In this document: piece by piece, positions 16,191 to 25,571 of the stretch
Numbering within the stretch: position 1 is the first letter of the stretch
Layout: each line of letters opens with the position of its first letter
From: Halorussus sp. MSC15.2
GTDB lineage: Archaea; Halobacteriota; Halobacteria; Halobacteriales; Haladaptataceae
Assembly: GCF_010747475.1 (NCBI RefSeq)
Contig: NZ_VSLZ01000013.1
Coordinates: 1-35,412, forward strand
Length of the DNA: 35,412 bases
Reading direction: 5' to 3'
Notes under the pieces: generated by a model
Database searches by the model: none
The model's input: only the letters and a program-made list of their open reading frames with translations
What the model was told of the DNA's origin: nothing
Program-made: the position numbers and the translations under genes

Positions 16191-16272
16191 CCCGTGGGCC
16201 AGATGACGGGTCCGGGAGACGTTCCGTCGGCCAGACGACGGTACTACGTCTCGGTTCGCGCCGACTCGAAAG

Positions 16273-16280
16273 GCTATAGC
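16273..16280 (+). promoter_or_regulatory. Box A for dphB
   Basis: GCTATAGC centred ~27 nt before the dphB ATG, consistent with a leaderless transcript. Confidence 0.5.
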
Positions 16281-16303
16281 CGTCCCCGTCCCCTATCGCC
16301 TAC

Positions 16304-17077
16304 ATGCTCACATTCGTCGGTCTCGGTCTCTACGACGAGCGCTCGATAACCGTCGAGGGCCGGGACGCCCTGCGGAACGCCGACCGCGTCTTCGCCGAGT
16401 TCTACACCAGCAGACTCCTCGGCGCGACCGTCGAGGACCTCGAATCCTACCACGACGCCGACATCGAGGTCCGCGACCGCGCGGGCGTCGAACAGGACCC
16501 CGAGGACATCCTTCGCGCCGGGAGCGACGGCGACGCGGTGTTCCTCACGGCGGGCGACACGATGATTTCGACCACGCACGTGGACCTCCGACTCCGCGCC
16601 GAGGAGCGCGGCATCGACACGCGGGTCGTCCACGCGCCGACCGCCGAGTCCGCCGCCAGCGGTCTGACCGGACTCCAGAACTATCGGTTCGGCAAGGCCA
16701 CGACGCTCCCCTTCGAGTACGCCCACGGTGCCGACGGCGTCCCCGCCAGCGTCACCGACGCGCTCGACGAGAACCGCGAGCGCGGTCTCCACACGCTGGT
16801 CTACCTCGACATCAAAGTTCGCAACGACGAATACATGACCGCCGACCACGCCGCCAGACTGCTCGCCGACGACTACGGCGACGTGCTGGCCGTCGTGGTC
16901 GCGCGCGCCGGGAGTCCGGACCCGTTGGTCGCGGCCGACCGACTCTCGAACCTCGCCGACCGCCAGTTCGGCGACCCGCTCCACCTACTGGTCGTTCCTG
17001 GAGACCTCCACCACATCGAGGCAGACGCGCTCGCCGAACTCGCCGACGCGCCCGAAGAACTGCTCGACGTCGAGTAG
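16304..17077 (+). CDS. dphB: Diphthine synthase DphB
   Basis: 257 residues of the tetrapyrrole methylase fold. The start MLTFVGLGLYDERSITVEG is the standard diphthine synthase opening; FLTAGDTMISTTHVDLRLRA carries the Gly-Asp SAM-contact loop, and NYRFGKATTLPFEY is also family-specific. DphB methylates the modified histidine of translation elongation factor 2 during diphthamide synthesis, in the cytosol, using SAM. The length is normal. It is convergent with artA (105 nt between stops) and has its own box A, so it appears monocistronic. Confidence 0.95.
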   Translation: MLTFVGLGLYDERSITVEGRDALRNADRVFAEFYTSRLLGATVEDLESYHDADIEVRDRAGVEQDPEDILRAGSDGDAVFLTAGDTMISTTHVDLRLRAEERGIDTRVVHAPTAESAASGLTGLQNYRFGKATTLPFEYAHGADGVPASVTDALDENRERGLHTLVYLDIKVRNDEYMTADHAARLLADDYGDVLAVVVARAGSPDPLVAADRLSNLADRQFGDPLHLLVVPGDLHHIEADALAELADAPEELLDVE

Positions 17078-17182
17078 CCGTTCTCACCGGACGAGCGACG
17101 ACTACCCGCCGTACCGCCGAAGAATCATCTCACAACTCGGAGTACTTCTGCAAACGGGAGTACGGACGAACGGCGTCGCGGG

Positions 17183-18109
17183 TCACTCGCCGTTCCCGTC
17201 CGCGGCGACCGGCCGCTCGGTCCCCACCGCCGCGTGGAGGTCGTACTCGTCGCCGGTCACGACGTAGAGGACGTCCTCGCCGACGGTCAGCAGTTCGGGC
17301 ACCTCGCGGGCGACGGCCCACGCGATGCCGACCAGCGCGACGACGGAGAGACTCTGAGCGAGGACGCGGTCGGAGATGAAGTACGACACCATGTACGGAT
17401 TGTCGTAGCCGACCAGCGACATCGTCGGTTCCACGAACACCTGCATCCACTGCTGGCTGAACGCGAGCGTGATGAACACGACTCGGGCGAGGTTCAGCGC
17501 CCAGATAACGGGGATAGCGATGGCGATAGCCCGAAGCTTCCGGCGGACGGGGGCGCGAACTGCTGCGATGAGACCGCCGAAGATGGCCATGCTCCCGAGA
17601 CCCGTGCAGGCAAGCAGGACGTTGATGGTGAACTCGCCGTGGTTCTCGGTGGCGAAGAAGTACGCGCCGCGGATGGTCTCGTCGCGTTGGACGACCTGAA
17701 ACTCGTAGCCGAGCGACCGCATGACGAACTCGCCCTGCCACGTCACGGTCTCGATGAGCCACTCGTTGGCCGGCGCAATCATCGTGAACGGCATGTAGAT
17801 GAGACCCATGAACGCGACGGCCCGCGAGAGCAGGAAGAGGGTCTCTCGCCCCTGCAAGAGCAGGTAACCGACGTACAGACAGGCAGGGAGTGCGACGAAA
17901 CTCAGCGCCCCTTCGATGAAACTCCGCTGTTCGAAGGCGAAGTGAGGGAACAGCGCGAGCCAGAAGACGCCGAAGACGCCCCACGCGCCCGCCGCGAGGT
18001 AGCGGGCGCGTCCGCGTCCGCGGTCGTCGTCGTACCAGTCGAGCGCGGTGGCCGCGGCGAACAGTCCAATCGCGAGCCACGCGAGTCCGTCGGTTAACGC
18101 CGAAGTCAC
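17183..18109 (-). CDS. artA: Archaeosortase A (PGF-CTERM sorting enzyme)
   Basis: A 308-residue membrane protein with about eight helices. From a GTG start, Cys168 (in LLACTGLGSMAIF), Arg209 (in ALNLARVVF) and Arg248 (in FISDRVLAQ) align with a constant offset of 5 to the Haloferax volcanii catalytic residues that I recall as C173, R214 and R253. ArtA cleaves the PGF-CTERM tail of surface proteins and joins the new C-terminus to a lipid. GTG 18109 is chosen because a box A (CTTTATC) lies ~30 nt upstream, while an ATG at 18211 would add 34 non-hydrophobic residues across that promoter. It sits 181 nt downstream of the S-layer gene on the same strand. Confidence 0.93.
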   Translation of the reverse strand: MTSALTDGLAWLAIGLFAAATALDWYDDDRGRGRARYLAAGAWGVFGVFWLALFPHFAFEQRSFIEGALSFVALPACLYVGYLLLQGRETLFLLSRAVAFMGLIYMPFTMIAPANEWLIETVTWQGEFVMRSLGYEFQVVQRDETIRGAYFFATENHGEFTINVLLACTGLGSMAIFGGLIAAVRAPVRRKLRAIAIAIPVIWALNLARVVFITLAFSQQWMQVFVEPTMSLVGYDNPYMVSYFISDRVLAQSLSVVALVGIAWAVAREVPELLTVGEDVLYVVTGDEYDLHAAVGTERPVAADGNGE

Positions 18110-18135
18110 TGTTAGCGGAGTGAAAGCGTCCCCCG

Positions 18136-18142
18136 GATAAAG
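18136..18142 (-). promoter_or_regulatory. Box A for artA
   Basis: CTTTATC, centred ~30 nt before GTG 18109. It gives artA its own promoter between the S-layer terminator and the gene, and decides the start codon. Confidence 0.55.
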
Positions 18143-18241
18143 AGTTGACGGCTCCGGTCGGGCCGGGTAACGTCGGCCTACGGGTACGGAAACGGTCCGT
18201 TTCGTCCACACGAGCGCAGTCGCTACGGAGTCGAACGCACG

Positions 18242-18276
18242 AAAAATGGGAACTGCGAAAGACCGGGAAACCCGGT
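18242..18276 (-). terminator. S-layer gene terminator: hairpin plus T-run
   Basis: On the minus strand, 14 nt after the S-layer stop, ACCGGG-TTT-CCCGGT (18262-18276) folds into a perfect 6-bp stem, followed by CCCATTTTTCG (18239-18250 region). The same T-rich motif follows the paralogous gene at 20788-20798. Confidence 0.65.
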
Positions 18277-18290
18277 GATTAGTTAGCTAT

Positions 18291-20360
18291 CTAGTTGCTG
18301 CGGCGGAGAGCCAGCAGCGCGGCGGCGACGAGCGCAACCATCGAGACGGCGACACCGAAGCCGGGGATACTACCACTCTGTTCGGTGGTGGTGGTCTCCT
18401 CGGTGGTGGTCTCTTCGGTCGTGGTCGTCGTGTCCGCGGTCGTCGTCGTCGTGGTCGTCGTCTCCGTCGTGGTCGTCGTGGTGGAGTTCGACGTGGTGGT
18501 CGTCGTCGTCTCTGCGGACTCGACAATCACGCCGTCGACCTCGTCACTCGCATCGCCGGACTTGGCGGAGACGGTGACGTCCGTGCCCGTGTCAACGTCG
18601 CTGAAGTCGAACGGGGCGACGAAGGTACCGTCGTCCTGAACGGTCGCGGTCGCGGTCCGGACGAAGGAGTCGGACTTGACCTGGACCTGGAACTCCGAGC
18701 CAGCAGCGATGCTGGTGTCACCGGAGATGTTACCGGCGACGGGGAGCACGTCGCTCTCGTTCACACCGGTGAAGGAGAGTTCGCGCTCCGTGACGGTGAA
18801 CGTAGTGTTGGCCGAGCGGGCCTCGTCAGTGACGCTGCTACCTTGGTGGACCGTGAACGTCGCGCGGTACTTGTCGGCCACACTGATGTCGTTGCTACTG
18901 GTGTCAACGACAGCGTAGACCGTGTTGTTGGCCGAGTCGAAGTAGACCTCACGCGTCTGGTTACCCTCGAACTCGTTCGGCTGAGCGTTCGCGCCGGGGT
19001 TGGTCTGCGTGACGTTCAGCGAGTAGACGTCGCTCGCGTTGAAGTTCGTGCTGAGGTTGTGATGGGTCAGACTGTCGTTACCGTAGAGACCGGACGCGGT
19101 GAACTCGACAACCGCGAGGTCCTGCATCGCAACGGAGTCACCCTTGACGACGTTGCTGACGAGGTCGCTCACGTCGCTCGGGAGGTTGCTCGTCTTTCGC
19201 GGGTGCTTCCAGACCTGCGCACCGTCAATCGAACCCTCGTTCAGGGAGAGCTGGGTGACGTCGTCCTCACCGTTGACGCCAGTAATCATCTCGTACTGAC
19301 CCGCGGAGATGGGACTGCCGAGACCGCCCGGGTCGGCCGTCTGGTTGTTGTCCCAGTTAGTGTGAACGCCCTGAATGGAACCACCATTGCTGGCGGTTCC
19401 GTGAGTCTTAACGGCGTCGTCACCTTCAACACTCACGAAGTCTTTAACCACACCGCTGTCGGACTTGTAAGTATTGAAGTTGACGGTGACCTCGTTGTCG
19501 GTGCCGTTGTCGTAGACCGTGAAGTTGGCCTTCCAGTTGACGTCTTGGCTACCGATGGAGACGTTAGCCTTGTCGCTGTTTTCGAGGTCGATGGTGAACG
19601 AGGCGATGTCGCCGCGCTCTTCACTGACAACGCCGCTACCTTGGAAAGTAGCCATTGCGTCGCCACCTGCCGAGACGTTGATGTCGGCTTCGGCGACCGC
19701 GCCGGTGTCGTTCACTTCGACTTTGAACGTGTAGTTGCCAGCGTCAACATCCTTGAAGGACGTATTGATCGTCTCAGTCTGGATGGTTTGGATAGCAACA
19801 CCGTTCTCAGTCCGCTTGGTCGTAATGTCGGTGAAGATTCCCTCAAGCTCCTCAGAACTGAGACCACTCGAGGTAATCGTGGCGTCGTAGTTCGTCCGCT
19901 TGGAGTTCAGGTTGAGTTCCGTCTTCGTGGAGTGCTTGTTGTCCACGTCGTCCTCGAAACTCGCGCTGAGGTCCTGCGACGTGACCTTGAAGCTGAGGAC
20001 TTTATTGTTAGCATCGGTGAGGTTCTGACCGTTCTCGTTCTGGAGGTAGTAGTTGCCTTCCAGACCCTTGGTGCTGAACTTGATGTCGCCTTCACTGTCC
20101 GTAACGAACGAGTCAGCGAGGGAGCCATCAGTTTCGTCAATAATTTCGACAGTCGTTTCCGTACTGTTCGCCTCGTCGGTGAAGACCGTCTGTCCCGCCC
20201 AGTAACGCTGGCCGGGGTTCAGGTCGAACGCATCGCCCTTCTCGACGTTTCCTGCCGCCGCGGATGCTGCGCCCGCAAAGGCGATGGTGCCGGCGAAAAC
20301 CGACATTACCAGCATCGCAGCAAGGAAAGCGCCGCGAAGTTTGTCTGTTGTTGTTGTCAT
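18291..20360 (-). CDS. csg: S-layer glycoprotein (PGF-CTERM anchored)
   Basis: 689 residues. A long signal peptide (MTTTTDKLRGAFLAAMLVMS, then VFAGTIAFAGAASA) of the halobacterial surface-glycoprotein type is followed by AAGNVEKGDAFDLNPGQRYWAGQTVF, typical of the mature S-layer N-terminus. Beta-rich domains follow to ~600, with about 20 Asn-X-Ser/Thr sequons, then a Thr-rich stalk, SIPGFG, a hydrophobic helix (MVALVAAALLAL) and RRSN: a complete PGF-CTERM signal, presumably processed by ArtA encoded next door. It forms the cell's paracrystalline coat. Unlike its paralog it has about 23 Lys, many Asn and visibly lower GC, possibly reflecting exchange of S-layer genes. ATG 20360 is chosen for the signal peptide; 28 upstream in-frame codons are rejected. 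Confidence 0.92.
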   Translation of the reverse strand: MTTTTDKLRGAFLAAMLVMSVFAGTIAFAGAASAAAGNVEKGDAFDLNPGQRYWAGQTVFTDEANSTETTVEIIDETDGSLADSFVTDSEGDIKFSTKGLEGNYYLQNENGQNLTDANNKVLSFKVTSQDLSASFEDDVDNKHSTKTELNLNSKRTNYDATITSSGLSSEELEGIFTDITTKRTENGVAIQTIQTETINTSFKDVDAGNYTFKVEVNDTGAVAEADINVSAGGDAMATFQGSGVVSEERGDIASFTIDLENSDKANVSIGSQDVNWKANFTVYDNGTDNEVTVNFNTYKSDSGVVKDFVSVEGDDAVKTHGTASNGGSIQGVHTNWDNNQTADPGGLGSPISAGQYEMITGVNGEDDVTQLSLNEGSIDGAQVWKHPRKTSNLPSDVSDLVSNVVKGDSVAMQDLAVVEFTASGLYGNDSLTHHNLSTNFNASDVYSLNVTQTNPGANAQPNEFEGNQTREVYFDSANNTVYAVVDTSSNDISVADKYRATFTVHQGSSVTDEARSANTTFTVTERELSFTGVNESDVLPVAGNISGDTSIAAGSEFQVQVKSDSFVRTATATVQDDGTFVAPFDFSDVDTGTDVTVSAKSGDASDEVDGVIVESAETTTTTTSNSTTTTTTETTTTTTTTADTTTTTEETTTEETTTTEQSGSIPGFGVAVSMVALVAAALLALRRSN

Positions 20361-20493
20361 GGTTTGGTTGTTTATTCGGTCGGCGACAGCACCTTTCCTG
20401 TGCCCTTCGGGGGAACCCGGTACCGCACCGGATGTGGGCCTCATGTACTCGCTACTGCCACCATGGGTAGGGGTACAGACATAAGGTTATGCC

Positions 20494-20504
20494 AAGGTTA
20501 TAAG
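20494..20504 (-). promoter_or_regulatory. Main candidate box A of the S-layer gene
   Basis: CTTATAACCTT predicts a start near 20472 and thus a leader of ~110 nt, unusually long among the mostly leaderless genes here. A related GGCATAACCTTAT copy lies beside it (20481-20493). Confidence 0.5.
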
Positions 20505-20787
20505 TGCTTTGTGGTCTGTGACTTGGCTCGTTACTCCGTAGCATGAAAATTTATTGGTCCGTTTCTCAGCCGCCTTAGCGCCTCAGGGGTCGAAATAGCC
20601 GAATCTGTCGGTGAAGTATCTTGAGAGACGTTCGCACGACCGCGTTCGGTATCGCGAAGCACCGAGACCGGTAGAAACGGCCGATTTCGTCCGTCCGTGG
20701 CGTCGGTTACGGGAGAAGTCCGAACGTCGCGATTTCCTTATAAAAGAAACGTGCCAATCGCGGCTGCGCGGTCAGCGTATATCTGCG

Positions 20788-20798
20788 ACGAAAAATGG
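20788..20798 (-). terminator. T-run terminator of the S-layer-like paralog
   Basis: CCATTTTTCGT on the minus strand, 25 nt after the stop at 20823. The motif is almost identical to the one after the S-layer gene. Confidence 0.5.
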
Positions 20799-20822
20799 AG
20801 TAGGACGCGACGTTACGTTCAG

Positions 20823-22922
20823 TTACCGACTACGGCGTATCGCCAGCAGTGCCGCCACCACGAGCGCGACGAGTGCGACGCCGACGCCGAAGCCGGGGAT
20901 GCCGCCCCCGCCGCCTTCTTCGGTTGTCGTCTCCACCGTCGTCGTCTCCGCTTCGGTCGTGGTCGTAGTCGTCGTTGTCGTCGTTGTCGTTGTCGTCGTG
21001 GTCGTAGTCGTTGTCGTCGTCTGTACCGTCGTCGTCTCGTTGGCCGCGGGTCCGCCCGCCGCGAGCTGGCCTTCGACCAGCACCGCCTCGCTACTCACGT
21101 TGTAGTTCGGAACGAGCACCTGCGCCTCGGTTCCGTTCTCCACGTTCGGCAGGTCGAAGTTCACCGTCCAAGTCCCGTTCTGGTTCACGGTGGCCTCTTC
21201 TGTTCGCAGGAACGCGCTGGAACCGGAACTCTCGATGCGCACGTCGAACGTACTTCCCGGCGCGAGCGTCGAGTTACCGGAGACGGTGCCGCGTCCGAGC
21301 GCGACCCGAAGCGGCTGGTCGCCGGTCGCGTTCTGGAGCGTCACCTGCCGGTCGACGACGTTGAAGACCGTCGATACAGACCGGTTCTGCTGGACGTAGG
21401 GGTTCTCCTCGGTCATCGTGAACGTGACGTTGTACCGACCGTCGGTCTCCAACCCGTTGGTGTCCAGCAGCATGAAGAAGTGGTTGTTCTGCGGGTCGGT
21501 CACGAGCGTGACGTTGCGGGCCGGAATCGACTGGGCCTCCGCGTTCGGACCGAGGTTGGTCCGCTGGATGGACGCCTGCAGACCGAGCGACCGATTGGTC
21601 AGGTTGGCCGACTCCTGAAGGTACCCGTACAGTCCGGACCCGCTGACCTCGACGACCGCCCAGTCCCCGCGCGCGATGGTGTCGTCGCGGCTCACCGCGC
21701 TCAACAACTCGGAGACGCTACCGGGTTCGGCCGAATCCGGTGCGGTCCACACCGTCATCGACTGCAACGACGGTTCGTTCAGTATCAGGTTCGCCACGTC
21801 TGTCGGGGTGCCGTCTACGAGCGTCCGTACGCCGTACTGGCCCGCGTCGAGCGGCGTCGTCAACGGTTCGGTGTCGAGATTGTAGTCGATTATCTCGTCG
21901 CCCTCGGCCACGGTGAACCCGCCCGTCGGTGCGATGTTACGACCTGCGACGAACGTGTTGAGTCGGAGCGTAACCTGACCGTCGTTGTTCACGTCCCGAA
22001 CGCGCACGGTCGCTTGGTAGTTCTTCTCCTGTGAGCCGACCGTGACGGTCGCGGTCTGCGTGCCGTTGAGTTGCACGGTGAAGGTCGCCACGTCCCCGCG
22101 CTGTTCGACGATTACGCTCTGGTTGAGGTTCGCGCCCTGTTGGCCCGGTTCGCGAACCTGAATCGTCGCGCGTGCGGTCACGTTCGTGTCCACCGGACTC
22201 ACGACGATTTCGTACTCTCCGGGACTCACCGTACTGAAGTTGGCGTCGAGAGCGTCGCGCGGACCGGTCACGGGTCGAGACAGGACGACTTCCTGCTGGC
22301 CGTCGCCGTCGATGTCCGTCCGGTTGGCCGCGAATATCTCGGTGAGTTGCCCGGCACCGAGTTCGTCCGACCGGAGGACGACCCGGTACTGACCGCGGTT
22401 CGACCGGAGTTCCAAGTCTGTCAGCGCGCTATCGCCGGTCGCGGTCGTGACCGTCTCGTCCGAGAAACTGGCGTTCAGTGATTGGGCCGCTATCTCGAAA
22501 CTCGGGTCGTTCGCCGTCGGCGTCTCCGCTATCGTCCCGTTGGCGAAGAACACGGGGGTCCCGTTCTCGTTCACCACCACGTACTGGCCGACGAGGTCGG
22601 ACGTCTGAATCGTCGCTGCGCCCGACCCGTTTAGCAGGAACTCGGTGACCAACGTGCCGACGTTGCCCCCACCCGACTCGTCCCACTCGCGTAACTGCCA
22701 CGTCTCGCTGGCGTTCTCCTCACCGGCCAGAACCAACAACTGCTGGCCCTGCCAGAACGTCTCCCCCGAGTCGAGTCGCTCCAACGTCGCGTCGTCCGCG
22801 GTCTGGGCCTGTACCCCCTTCGCGTCGGACGCCGCCCCGGCGAGGGCGGCCGGCCCGACGACCATCGCCGAAACTACCACTATCGTCAGCCAAACGCTCC
22901 GTAACTGATGTACTCGTGTCAT
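20823..22922 (-). CDS. S-layer glycoprotein paralog (PGF-CTERM surface glycoprotein)
   Basis: 699 residues, collinear with the S-layer glycoprotein: signal peptide (residues ~1-30, LTIVVVSAMVVGPAALAGAA), then LDSGETFWQGQQLLVL corresponding to LNPGQRYWAGQTVF, SLNASFSDE matching DLSASFEDD, VVEVSGSGLYGY matching VVEFTASGLYGN, and QRTNLGPNAEAQ matching TQTNPGANAQPN. It has many Asn-linked sequons, a run of 22 Thr, a GGGGGIPGFG motif, a hydrophobic helix and RRSR, a full PGF-CTERM signal. It has only two Lys against about 23 in the S-layer protein, so the copies are old or of different origin. It may be a minor or alternative coat protein. It likely has a long leader: CTATTTCC near 23055-23062 predicts ~110 nt. 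Confidence 0.88.
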   Translation of the reverse strand: MTRVHQLRSVWLTIVVVSAMVVGPAALAGAASDAKGVQAQTADDATLERLDSGETFWQGQQLLVLAGEENASETWQLREWDESGGGNVGTLVTEFLLNGSGAATIQTSDLVGQYVVVNENGTPVFFANGTIAETPTANDPSFEIAAQSLNASFSDETVTTATGDSALTDLELRSNRGQYRVVLRSDELGAGQLTEIFAANRTDIDGDGQQEVVLSRPVTGPRDALDANFSTVSPGEYEIVVSPVDTNVTARATIQVREPGQQGANLNQSVIVEQRGDVATFTVQLNGTQTATVTVGSQEKNYQATVRVRDVNNDGQVTLRLNTFVAGRNIAPTGGFTVAEGDEIIDYNLDTEPLTTPLDAGQYGVRTLVDGTPTDVANLILNEPSLQSMTVWTAPDSAEPGSVSELLSAVSRDDTIARGDWAVVEVSGSGLYGYLQESANLTNRSLGLQASIQRTNLGPNAEAQSIPARNVTLVTDPQNNHFFMLLDTNGLETDGRYNVTFTMTEENPYVQQNRSVSTVFNVVDRQVTLQNATGDQPLRVALGRGTVSGNSTLAPGSTFDVRIESSGSSAFLRTEEATVNQNGTWTVNFDLPNVENGTEAQVLVPNYNVSSEAVLVEGQLAAGGPAANETTTVQTTTTTTTTTTTTTTTTTTTTTTEAETTTVETTTEEGGGGGIPGFGVGVALVALVVAALLAIRRSR
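20955..21020 (-). repeat. Run of 22 Thr codons
   Basis: 22 consecutive Thr codons in the S-layer paralog, mixing ACG, ACA, ACC and ACT rather than a pure trinucleotide repeat, just before the PGF-CTERM region. Confidence 0.9.
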
Positions 22923-23142
22923 GTGTAGACTCTCCAGTATTCGTTCGAATGGATGCCGTTGCCGACTCTACCCTCGTCCCCACCCAAGGCCGCGCGTAAC
23001 GGTAGTGCCTCTCGGCAAAGAGAACAGCATGGCTAACAGCATATGCCTTGTGGGGAAATAGAGCATTTCAGCGCCTACGGAGGCTAAAAACGGCGTATTT
23101 AGGCGCAGATATATCGGTTACGGAGGAGTCCGTACGCTCGCC

Positions 23143-23904
23143 CTACTCGTCGCGTTCGAGAATCTCGATTTCGTGGCCGTCCACGTCCTTCGTGAAGGCG
23201 TAGCGGTTGTCACAAGATTCGGGGTCGCGGTAGTCCTCGGCGTCGCGTTCCATCAGCGTCGCCCAGTCGCCTTGGAGGTCGTCGGCGCGGACGGCGAGGT
23301 GGCCCCACGCGTCGCCCAACTCGTACGTCCGTCCGTCGTAGTTGTACGTGAGTTCGACCGCCATTGCCTCCTCGGCCGCGCCCTCGGGTTTCATGAAGTA
23401 GTTGGCGAAGGTGTCGGACTCCCAGCGACCGGTGTGTTCGTACTCCAGTTTTCGGGTGTACCATCCGAGCGCGGCGTCGGCGTCCTCGACGCGAATCATG
23501 GTGTGGTCGAGGCTCCAGCGCGCGCCGTGGTCTCGCTCGACGATTTCGATTTCGTGGCCGTCCGGGTCCTTCACGAAGGCGTAGGAGCCACCGCAGGAGT
23601 CGGGGTCGCGGTAGTCCTCGACGCCCTCGTCCATCAGTTGTTCGTAGGCGTCGTACACGTCGTCCACGCGCACGGCGATGTGGCCCCACGCGTCGCCCAT
23701 CTCGTAGGTTCGGTCGTCGTGGTTGTACGTGATTTCGAGGAGCGCGCCCTCCTCGTGGACGTCCTCGGGACCGAGGTAGACGTTGGTGAAGGTGTCGGCC
23801 TCCCAGCGACCCTTCTCCTCGTAGTCGAGGTGGGTCCCGTACCAGTCGAGCGTCTCGTCGAGGTCCTCTACGCGCATCATCACGTGGTCGAGCGTGGCGT
23901 TCAT
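23143..23904 (-). CDS. Tandem VOC (glyoxalase I-like) protein
   Basis: 253 residues made of two similar halves, each a paired beta-alpha-beta-beta-beta VOC module. The putative metal ligands are complete in both: His7, Glu57, His75, Glu120 in the first and His134, Glu184, His202, Glu247 in the second. Phrases TLDWYGTHLDYEEKGRWEAD and ALGWYTRKLEYEHTGRWESD show the internal duplication. Single-domain glyoxalase I dimerises to build its active sites, so this may be a fused form detoxifying methylglyoxal-type 2-oxoaldehydes, or another metal dioxygenase or isomerase. Haloarchaea use gamma-glutamylcysteine rather than glutathione, so the thiol substrate would differ. Cytosolic; stands alone. Confidence 0.88.
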   Translation of the reverse strand: MNATLDHVMMRVEDLDETLDWYGTHLDYEEKGRWEADTFTNVYLGPEDVHEEGALLEITYNHDDRTYEMGDAWGHIAVRVDDVYDAYEQLMDEGVEDYRDPDSCGGSYAFVKDPDGHEIEIVERDHGARWSLDHTMIRVEDADAALGWYTRKLEYEHTGRWESDTFANYFMKPEGAAEEAMAVELTYNYDGRTYELGDAWGHLAVRADDLQGDWATLMERDAEDYRDPESCDNRYAFTKDVDGHEIEILERDE

Positions 23905-24027: not shown

Positions 24028-24462
24028 TCACGGCCACAGTGCGGTCCGGAGGTCCGACCAGTGGAACCACCACGCTGCAATCCAGAGCAGGACCGACCCG
24101 ACCGGAACCGCCAGCAACCCCGGCCGCGCCATCCCGAGCGCGAACCAGAAGTCGCTCGCGCCCGCGAGCGCCAGCAACCCGCCGGTCACTCGACGGTCCT
24201 CCCAGTCCGGACCGAACTGGCCGAGAACCGCGTTCCCGACCGCGAGCAGGTACAGCGAGACGGCGATAGGCCACGCGAGCAAGCGGTTCGGGAGTCCACT
24301 CGTGTAGACGAACAGGTAGTCGGGAAGCGTCGTGACGTGGACCGGGTCGAACGTCGCCAGCCCCCACGCGAACACGAAGTCGCCGGTCGAAAGGACCGTC
24401 CACGGAGCGAAGAAGAGTGCGAGTAGCGCGAGCAGTCGCCGGGGGTCGGTCGGCCGGTCCAT
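24028..24462 (-). CDS. Small integral membrane protein, probably the TIGR04206 (near-ArtA) family
   Basis: 144 residues with four hydrophobic segments and the string LPDYLFVYTSGLPNRLLAWP in an external loop, then DRRVTGGLLALAGASDFWFALG and a Trp-rich end (LLWIAAWWFHW). From memory this matches TIGR04206, defined as a haloarchaeal membrane protein often encoded near archaeosortase A; the function is unknown and I could not check the assignment. artA lies about 6 kb away here. It starts at ATG 24462, overlapping the Drg GTPase stop by one base (TGATG); a GTG at 24465 is an alternative. It is thus translationally coupled to drg. Confidence 0.7.
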   Translation of the reverse strand: MDRPTDPRRLLALLALFFAPWTVLSTGDFVFAWGLATFDPVHVTTLPDYLFVYTSGLPNRLLAWPIAVSLYLLAVGNAVLGQFGPDWEDRRVTGGLLALAGASDFWFALGMARPGLLAVPVGSVLLWIAAWWFHWSDLRTALWP

Positions 24463-25571
24463 CACTTCCGGACGACGAGTCGGAGCACGTCCTCGTCGGC
24501 GAGTTCGTGGCTCTTGCCGACCTGTTGCTCGTCGTGCTTGGCGCTCGGCCCGCTCACGCGGGCGAACCGGAACCGGTCTTCGAGTTCGCCGCCGAGTCGC
24601 CGCGCGGCGTCCCCGACCGTACTCCCCTTGGGGAGGACGAGCGGTTCGTCGCGGTCCACGCCTCGGCCCGGTTTGTCCATGTAGATGCGCATGAGACCGA
24701 GTTCCTGCCAGATGGACTCCTTGAGTGAGTCGAGACCCCGCTCGGCCTCGGCCGAGATGAAAATGGCCTCGTCGGGGTCGATATCATGCTCGCGGAGGTC
24801 CTCGTTGACGGTCTCGACGTAGTCGGGTTCGATGAGGTCCACCTTGTTGACCGTCACGATGGAGGGGATGTACTCGCGGTTGTCCATCACGCCGTCCACG
24901 AGACGGTCGATGTCCACCTGCTCGCGGATGGTCACGTCGGCGTTGACGTAGCCGTGTTCGCGCAGGACCTCCTTCACCACGTCCTCCGAGAGGTCCAAAT
25001 CTACGCTCGACGTGACCCGGATGCCGCCCTTGCCCTTCTTCGATATCTTGACGCTCGGCGGCGACTGGTCGAGGCGAATCTTGTTCTCGTAGAGTTCCTT
25101 CTGCAGGCGCTCGTACTGGTCTATCTCGAAGACCGAGAGGACGAACACCACAAGGTCCGCGGCGCGGACGACCGACAGGACCTCTTGCCCGCCGCCGCGG
25201 CCGTGCGCCGCGCCCTCGATGAGACCGGGCACGTCGAGCAGTTGGATGTTCGCACCGTTGTACTGCAACATCCCGGGGTTGACGTTGAGAGTCGTGAACT
25301 CGTAGTCACCGACTTCGCTCTCGGCGGCAGTCAGCGAGTTCAGTAGGGTAGACTTCCCGACGCTCGGGAAGCCGACGAACGCGACGGTGGCGTCTCCGTG
25401 CTTCTCCACGTGGTACCCCTCGCCGCCGCCGGCGGAGGACTGGTTCTCGAGTTTCTCCTTCTTCTCCGCGAGTTTGGCCTTCAGCCGTCCGATGTGCGCC
25501 TCCGTGGACTTGTTGTACGGAGTCTCGGCTATCTCCTCGCGGAGGTCCTCGATTTCTTCCTCCAGTCCCAT
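24462..25571 (-). CDS. drg: Drg-type translation-associated GTPase with TGS domain
   Basis: 369 residues. An N-terminal helical region (MGLEEEIEDLREEIAET, ~1-45) is followed by the G domain: P-loop GFPSVGKS (67-74), TT at 93-94, DVPG (113-116), NKVD (242-245) and SAE (273-275). An HTH-like insertion lies between ~165 and 235, and a TGS domain at ~294-368 ends VLRLVVRK. This is the archaeal/eukaryotic Drg (Obg-HflX superfamily) layout; in eukaryotes Drg proteins act on translating ribosomes, and the archaeal role is inferred. ATG 25571 is chosen because a box A (GCTTTTTCGG, ~25595-25604) lies ~29 nt upstream; 50 extra in-frame codons before it are rejected. Coupled to the downstream membrane-protein gene. 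Confidence 0.93.
   Translation of the reverse strand: MGLEEEIEDLREEIAETPYNKSTEAHIGRLKAKLAEKKEKLENQSSAGGGEGYHVEKHGDATVAFVGFPSVGKSTLLNSLTAAESEVGDYEFTTLNVNPGMLQYNGANIQLLDVPGLIEGAAHGRGGGQEVLSVVRAADLVVFVLSVFEIDQYERLQKELYENKIRLDQSPPSVKISKKGKGGIRVTSSVDLDLSEDVVKEVLREHGYVNADVTIREQVDIDRLVDGVMDNREYIPSIVTVNKVDLIEPDYVETVNEDLREHDIDPDEAIFISAEAERGLDSLKESIWQELGLMRIYMDKPGRGVDRDEPLVLPKGSTVGDAARRLGGELEDRFRFARVSGPSAKHDEQQVGKSHELADEDVLRLVVRK

Follow-up and report, generated by a model that had tools for sequence, protein, structure and literature searches.

Introduction

Most haloarchaea have no wall other than the surface layer (S-layer), which also serves some of their viruses as a receptor. Which kind of unit, then, is formed where the gene of archaeosortase A (artA) stands beside S-layer genes, as in a Halorussus genome (Halorussus sp. 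MSC15.2) whose nearest named relative is Halorussus aquaticus XZYJ18 (ArtA 95%)? The window analyzed here is a complete contig of 35,412 bases from that genome, and its minus strand carries, collinearly, the S-layer-type genes Slp2 (20823-22922) and Slp1 (18291-20360) and then artA (17183-18109), with dph5 convergent; a preliminary description had placed these three genes in tandem on one strand, which is borne out. The parts of the locus are known ones, and their arrangement is that of a modular S-layer locus with an expression end, an exchangeable coat, and an anchoring end that includes the enzyme. The reading proposed, to which a probability of about 80% is given, is that of an old and widespread haloarchaeal S-layer locus built of modules. 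The first would run from the promoter over a structured 5' leader RNA to the conserved signal peptide of surface glycoproteins; the second would be an exchangeable beta-rich S-layer ectodomain; and the third would hold the conserved Thr-rich stalk with its PGF-CTERM signal, followed by a terminator hairpin and by artA, which has a promoter to itself. The direct observations behind this reading are the gene content, the survey of linkage, the mosaic structure of the locus, saturation at synonymous sites, covariation in the leader, and the association of the leader with S-layer genes.

Linkage of artA and the S-layer gene

Linkage was surveyed in 118 assessable artA loci of ~20 kb each and was scored where a gene similar to the S-layer glycoprotein gene (csg-like), or a large PGF-CTERM gene, lies collinear with artA and no more than 5 kb upstream. 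Such a survey had been called for in the preliminary description, and linkage proves not to be unique to the window genome, as it occurs in 58 of the 118 loci, distributed over 30 genera and six families. Chance linkage is implausible at this frequency, since fewer than ~1% would be expected by our own estimate from the few csg-like genes per ~4 Mb genome. Similarly, in 41 of 61 genomes no more than 6.5 kb separates artA from the best match to NF041335, the model of ArtA-dependent S-layer proteins. In the 118-locus survey, linkage is absent from all 24 loci of family f4, from f7 and f10, from the sister genera Haladaptatus and Halomicrococcus, and also from Halobellus and Haloquadratum. The literature searched, which did not reach the founding archaeosortase paper (Haft 2012), contains no statement of artA-csg linkage.

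The signals between Slp1 and artA are conserved in 13 Halorussus species. The promoter footprint of artA, GTCAACTCTTTATCCGGGG (18131-18149, minus strand, TATA at 18137-18142), is kept in these species as the motif GTCAACTCTTTATyCGGGG, with small departures in the most distant ones. The start of artA is best placed at GTG 18109 because the conserved TATA lies ~28 nt upstream of it, a spacing that suggests a leaderless mRNA. The 3' terminator of Slp1 (18241-18276, minus strand) consists of a hairpin at 18262-18276 (ACCGGG TTT CCCGGT) followed by a T-run at 18241-18248, and its stem is preserved by compensatory changes (ACCGGG/CCCGGT, ACCGGA/TCCGGT, ACCGGC/GCCGGT, and others), while the 86-nt stretch folded alone has unexceptional stability (z -0.95). 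A scan for sigma-70 promoters and bacterial terminators is uninformative for archaea. Both an own artA promoter (given earlier as 18136-18142) and a hairpin terminator separating it from the S-layer gene had been described from the window alone, and the conservation now supports both; artA and csg are therefore most likely separate transcription units. Since about half of the loci are unlinked, linkage is not needed for processing, and together with the separate transcription units this indicates an arrangement that is favored rather than required. The earlier idea of a possible surface-assembly locus with enzyme and bulk substrate linked stands in part, as a widely conserved locus with separate promoters; the linkage itself is dispensable.

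It is possible, though doubtful, that the linkage is passive inherited synteny, with artA and csg as ancestral neighbors that drift apart without consequence. Such a history would agree with the separate promoters, with the detection of ArtA in all 212 genomes of the class, and with the frequent change of linkage state, which needs 14 changes on the ArtA tree (40 in shuffles). It accords less well with the occurrence of linkage on both sides of the midpoint of that tree, and with eight linked loci in which csg remains beside artA though none of dph5, drg, glyoxalase, and near_ArtA stands close by. Members of families f1, f3, f5, and f8 have in common the gene order drg, near_ArtA, glyoxalase, csg, artA, dph5. 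A function of the artA-csg linkage itself is inferred. As a separate observation, what is left of a csg gene in one genome (G042:C1:1039958-1040401) is a decayed C-terminal end, interrupted by an in-frame stop and situated immediately upstream of artA; it appears to be a linked S-layer gene lost in place.

Archaeosortase A and its putative substrates

ArtA of the window (308 aa, GTG start) scores 323 bits against TIGR04125, for which the cut-off is 75, and is thus an archaeosortase A. C168 and R209 are invariant in 121 of 121 ArtA sequences, and the third catalytic residue, R248, is found in 90 of them, including that of the window. In the PGF_CTERM model (TIGR04126, cut-off 24.5), Slp1 (689 aa) reaches 36.0 bits and its collinear paralog Slp2 (699 aa) 34.5 bits, both with the PGF motif, the hydrophobic segment, and the basic tail. 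Three catalytic residues in ArtA and full PGF-CTERM ends on both glycoproteins had been read from the sequence before, and the profile matches confirm them; both proteins would accordingly be expected as substrates of ArtA.

At positions 247-248 of the 121 aligned ArtA sequences, those of family f4 (24 loci, all unlinked) have HN or HS, not DR, and HH is found in f10 and part of f7, which suggests that the third catalytic residue was switched from Arg to His in these groups. Genomes of the Halomarina type carry two tandem artA copies, ~50% identical to the window ArtA (L114:9010-10995 in G156, L252, and G159:C49:110-1936), possibly with two sorting specificities.

Among the S-layer matches of the window genome, Slp1 and Slp2 rank highest. 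Against NF041335, they score 205 and 214 bits, respectively, over the C-terminal part, where the equivalog cut-off is 1100, and against TIGR04216, the HVO_2072 family, the two proteins score 79 and 64.5 bits, where it is 400; they are best regarded as relatives, not members, of NF041335. The surface-glycoprotein signal TIGR04207 is matched by Slp1 (27.1 bits) and not by Slp2. A longer Slp1 reading frame starting at 20444 was rejected, as this signal begins at ATG 20360. Slp1 has the features of an S-layer glycoprotein: a signal peptide, tandem beta domains, N-glycosylation sites (20 sequons), a Thr tract forming a Thr-rich stalk, PGF-CTERM, and similarity to the Haloferax volcanii S-layer structure 7ptp, which is found by sequence (E 5e-7) and is also the top fold match (E 1.5e-15, with a TMq of only 0.34) of a fair AlphaFold2 model made from an alignment (pLDDT 77.6). 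This model supersedes a poor single-sequence one (pLDDT 41), and folding covered Slp1.

It is unlikely that the two proteins form a two-component S-layer, or that Slp2 is the bulk coat with Slp1 as its accessory. The NF041335 score of Slp2 is as high as that of Slp1, Slp2 is 94% conserved in Halorussus aquaticus, and Halorubrum lacusprofundi has been reported with two S-layer proteins (PMC10544981); against this, the TIGR04207 signal and the leader described below belong to Slp1 only, and several Halorussus have a single Slp, which stands at the Slp1 place. Slp1 is accordingly taken as the probable main S-layer glycoprotein.

The structured 5' leader RNA of Slp1

Upstream of Slp1, a TATA box (TTATAA in ACCACAAAGCACTTATAACC, 20498-20503, minus strand), which is shared by most of 16 Halorussus and by ~70 leaders of many genera, is followed ~25 nt later by GTACCCCTACCCATGGTGGCAGTAGCGAGTAC, and transcription is predicted to start near 20476. 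The whole leader of ~117 nt (20361-20476, minus strand) is a structured RNA with two covarying helices, whose compensatory changes go beyond those of controls. Helix P1 (20463-20454 with 20390-20381) pairs alignment columns 14-23, of the GGTGGCAG type, with columns 105-114, of the CTGTCGCC type, and the block 20445-20476 is invariant. P2, inside P1, is a variable hairpin, the arms of which differ wholly in sequence between genera and yet pair best with their own partners. When cognate arms are compared with permuted ones, z is -10.8 for P2 (-6.6 in a non-redundant set) and -6.5 for P1 (-5.3), while z stays between +1 and -2.5 for control arms taken from segments that are reversed or unrelated. 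Moreover, P1 is 89% paired, whereas slid versions reach no more than 72%, and its double changes number 16 vs 4.9 in shuffles. Between P1 and P2, GAGUA and GAAA are nearly invariant and resemble, though it is a mere resemblance, a loop of the sarcin-ricin type. The case for the RNA rests on this covariation, since minimum-energy folds of single leaders are mostly no better than shuffles; RNAalifold recovers P1 alone, as the sequences of P2 do not permit an alignment.

The leader block is present in 70 of 201 artA loci, nearly always ahead of a csg-like gene. The leader model R1 matches the window genome once, before Slp1 (E 7e-22), with no match upstream of Slp2, and is found in 52 of 76 other genomes. 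Of 67 tallied hits in 51 genomes, 62 lie directly 5' of an NF041335 S-layer match, including genomes with csg far from artA. In Halorussus halobius (G224), csg and its leader (C3:72987) and artA (C2:734501) are on separate contigs; leader and linkage are separate in this genome. The leader thus travels with csg and not with artA, and it may act in S-layer gene expression. The other five hits (G154:C5:121000, G136:C1:1229034, G014:C3:264867, G074:C4:6307, and G068:C1:1009328) may point to S-layer genes that have diverged or to a further role of this RNA.

That the conserved block is instead a DNA element, such as a promoter-proximal binding site, is quite improbable. In favor of such a site, the block opens with 16 nearly invariant nt at about the expected start of transcription; against it stand the compensatory changes in P1, and especially in P2 with its genus-specific arms. 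Rfam gives no credible match above the gathering score in 16200-23400 of the window, its microRNA matches (E 0.06-0.6) being dismissed as chance, and the exact leader block was not found in viral contigs. A ~111-nt csg leader was reportedly described in Halobacterium in the 1980s. Within the literature searched, with the limit given above, no conserved csg leader is reported, and the structured leader appears to be new to it.

Apparent exchange of the Slp1 ectodomain

Identity between the window and Halorussus aquaticus is ~95% in two blocks, one running from dph5 through artA into the final ~70 codons of Slp1 and the other from the leader of Slp1 across Slp2 as far as drg. Between these flanks, codons 31-617 of Slp1 (18510-20270, minus strand) drop to ~50% nucleotide identity, the signal peptide is intermediate (0.73-0.80), and the Thr-rich stalk with PGF-CTERM (codons 618-689, 18294-18509, minus strand) is conserved at 0.96-1.00, the junction at the Thr tract being sharp. 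At 4-fold sites, the identity is 0.84 in artA, 0.82 in Slp2, 0.96 in the Slp1 tail, and 0.45 in the Slp1 ectodomain, where 0.40 is random. Selection at the protein level cannot saturate synonymous sites within a single stretch, and the history of the ectodomain must therefore be a different and older one. Consistent with this, a sister grouping of the two Slp1 ectodomains is rejected by the approximately unbiased (AU) test (p 1.9e-10), while artA and Slp2 pair both genomes. Simple fast evolution is rejected by the 4-fold sites, and divergence in place under adaptive selection, for which the role of S-layer proteins as virus receptors under selection might speak (PMC10544981), is highly improbable, as it meets near-random 4-fold sites between flanks at 0.82-0.96, a sharp junction, and a tree conflict, and could be saved only by local hypermutation that also hits synonymous sites.

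The preferred explanation is that the Slp1 ectodomain has been replaced as a cassette, among close relatives, between the signal peptide and the Thr-stalk/PGF-CTERM, as its sequence history indicates. Ectodomain classes are found at the Slp1 and Slp2 places alike within Halorussus. A second case of replacement is seen in a pair that we take to belong to Haloarcula (artA 95.8% identical), with the junction ~170 codons before the stop. Pairs from Halococcus, Halosimplex, and Haloferax have no such identity break, and the break is therefore not an alignment effect. In another pair (L118 and L119, artA 93.6% identical in nucleotides), the csg beside artA encodes 423 vs 848 aa with a conserved C-terminus, a difference that looks like an internal ectodomain deletion. 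Intragenic junctions beside artA appear unreported in the literature searched, again short of the founding paper.

Neighboring genes

The flanks of the locus consist of conserved neighbors. Downstream of artA, dph5 (16304-17077, plus strand; TIGR00522, 258 bits) is kept in families f1, f3, f5, and f8. On the other side lie a glyoxalase-like gene (23143-23904, minus strand; TIGR00068, 134 bits), whose place in the gene order is conserved, and a membrane protein of the TIGR04206 "near_ArtA" family (24028-24465, minus strand; 131 bits, cut-off 90). The gene of this last protein keeps its place between drg and glyoxalase whether or not the locus is linked.

A model of the locus and its weighing

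According to the model, Slp1 mRNA would be made at a high level with its leader, and the protein would then be exported and glycosylated. ArtA from the next gene would cleave the PGF-CTERM and anchor Slp1 to lipid, with Slp2 as a second substrate, back-up, or variant coat. Homologous recombination across the conserved ends would swap the exposed ectodomain, probably under viral selection, and leave export, expression, and anchoring intact. More tentatively, and at somewhat less than even odds, the csg leader may represent a novel class of cis-acting, structured RNAs by which haloarchaea set the synthesis of their S-layer, and the artA-csg locus may be a dedicated S-layer expression site. If so, any ectodomain that recombination brings in between one end, with leader and signal peptide, and the other, with stalk, PGF-CTERM, and artA, would be expressed and anchored at once, and the locus would be a cassette system of surface variation.

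Several points weigh against the modular reading. About half of the artA loci are without linkage, and individual genera have lost some of the pairs in P1. Since the equivalog cut-offs of NF041335 and TIGR04216 are not reached, the designation of Slp1 as the main S-layer protein draws on its leader, its architecture, and its rank among the best matches of the genome. The sample has one genome per species, and the donors of recombination are therefore unseen; in Haloquadratum, S-layer exchange has its breakpoints outside csg (PMC3119063). For the organism of the window, the model is built from sequence. Its interest is that intragenic cassette junctions would offer a concrete route to coat change with anchoring kept; a fixed leader and anchor end around an exchanged middle suggests how cells alter their surface without loss of the wall, and the leader is a defined RNA element on a gene that is usually among the most highly expressed in haloarchaea.

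Comparison with known systems

For Haloquadratum and Halorubrum, exchange of S-layers under pressure from viruses is already known or has been proposed (PMC3119063; PMC10544981). In the flexible genomic islands of Haloquadratum walsbyi (GI1/replacement), the S-layer gene is swapped in a conserved gene context as here, but the breakpoint lies outside csg, with up to 44 kb changed (PMC3119063), whereas in Halorussus the breakpoints are inside the gene and beside artA. The artA-pssA-pssD cluster of Methanosarcina (PMC7157517) likewise links artA to genes of the anchoring pathway; these are lipid-synthesis genes, in contrast to the substrate gene of the Halorussus locus, and the cluster is reported absent in >70 haloarchaea. 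TIGR04206 had already been named by NCBI for its proximity to artA, a name that carries no statement on csg linkage.

The closest comparison is with Haloferax. ArtA of Haloferax volcanii (HVO_0915) and that of the window are of one family with identical catalytic residues and PGF-CTERM substrates, and its S-layer glycoprotein HVO_2072 (7ptp) is matched by Slp1 in sequence and fold. Among 15 Haloferax genomes, three have an S-layer gene of the HVO_2072 family over the TIGR04216 cut-off, none of them with a leader match; 11 of the other 12 have a leader match, which lies a few kb upstream of artA in 10. Haloferax gibbonsii, larsenii, mucosum, marinum, and others are linked, and denitrificans, sulfurifontis, and massiliensis are unlinked. 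In two Haloferax genomes that were checked, the gene adjoining artA scores 1523 and 1551 bits on NF041335, which marks it as a bona fide S-layer glycoprotein gene by sequence. Mass spectrometry has identified the S-layer protein of Haloferax gibbonsii, which shares 24% identity with HVO_2072 (PMC7921747), and in strain ATCC 33959 a csg-like gene adjoins artA, of which the identified protein is probably the product. This type of glycoprotein (HfgLR_04635; NF041335) is encoded by a PGF-CTERM S-layer gene, as is Slp1, although Slp1 and Slp2 score far under the equivalog cut-off. The earlier statement that artA and the S-layer gene are far apart in Haloferax volcanii holds for genomes of its type, which are an exception even within Haloferax, where most are linked and have a leader-bearing csg-like gene beside artA, as in the window. 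The S-layer gene of Haloferax volcanii is of another family, and near relatives of this species have the gene unlinked and with no match to the leader, which suggests that this model organism for ArtA and S-layer structure is atypical in both locus and S-layer family.

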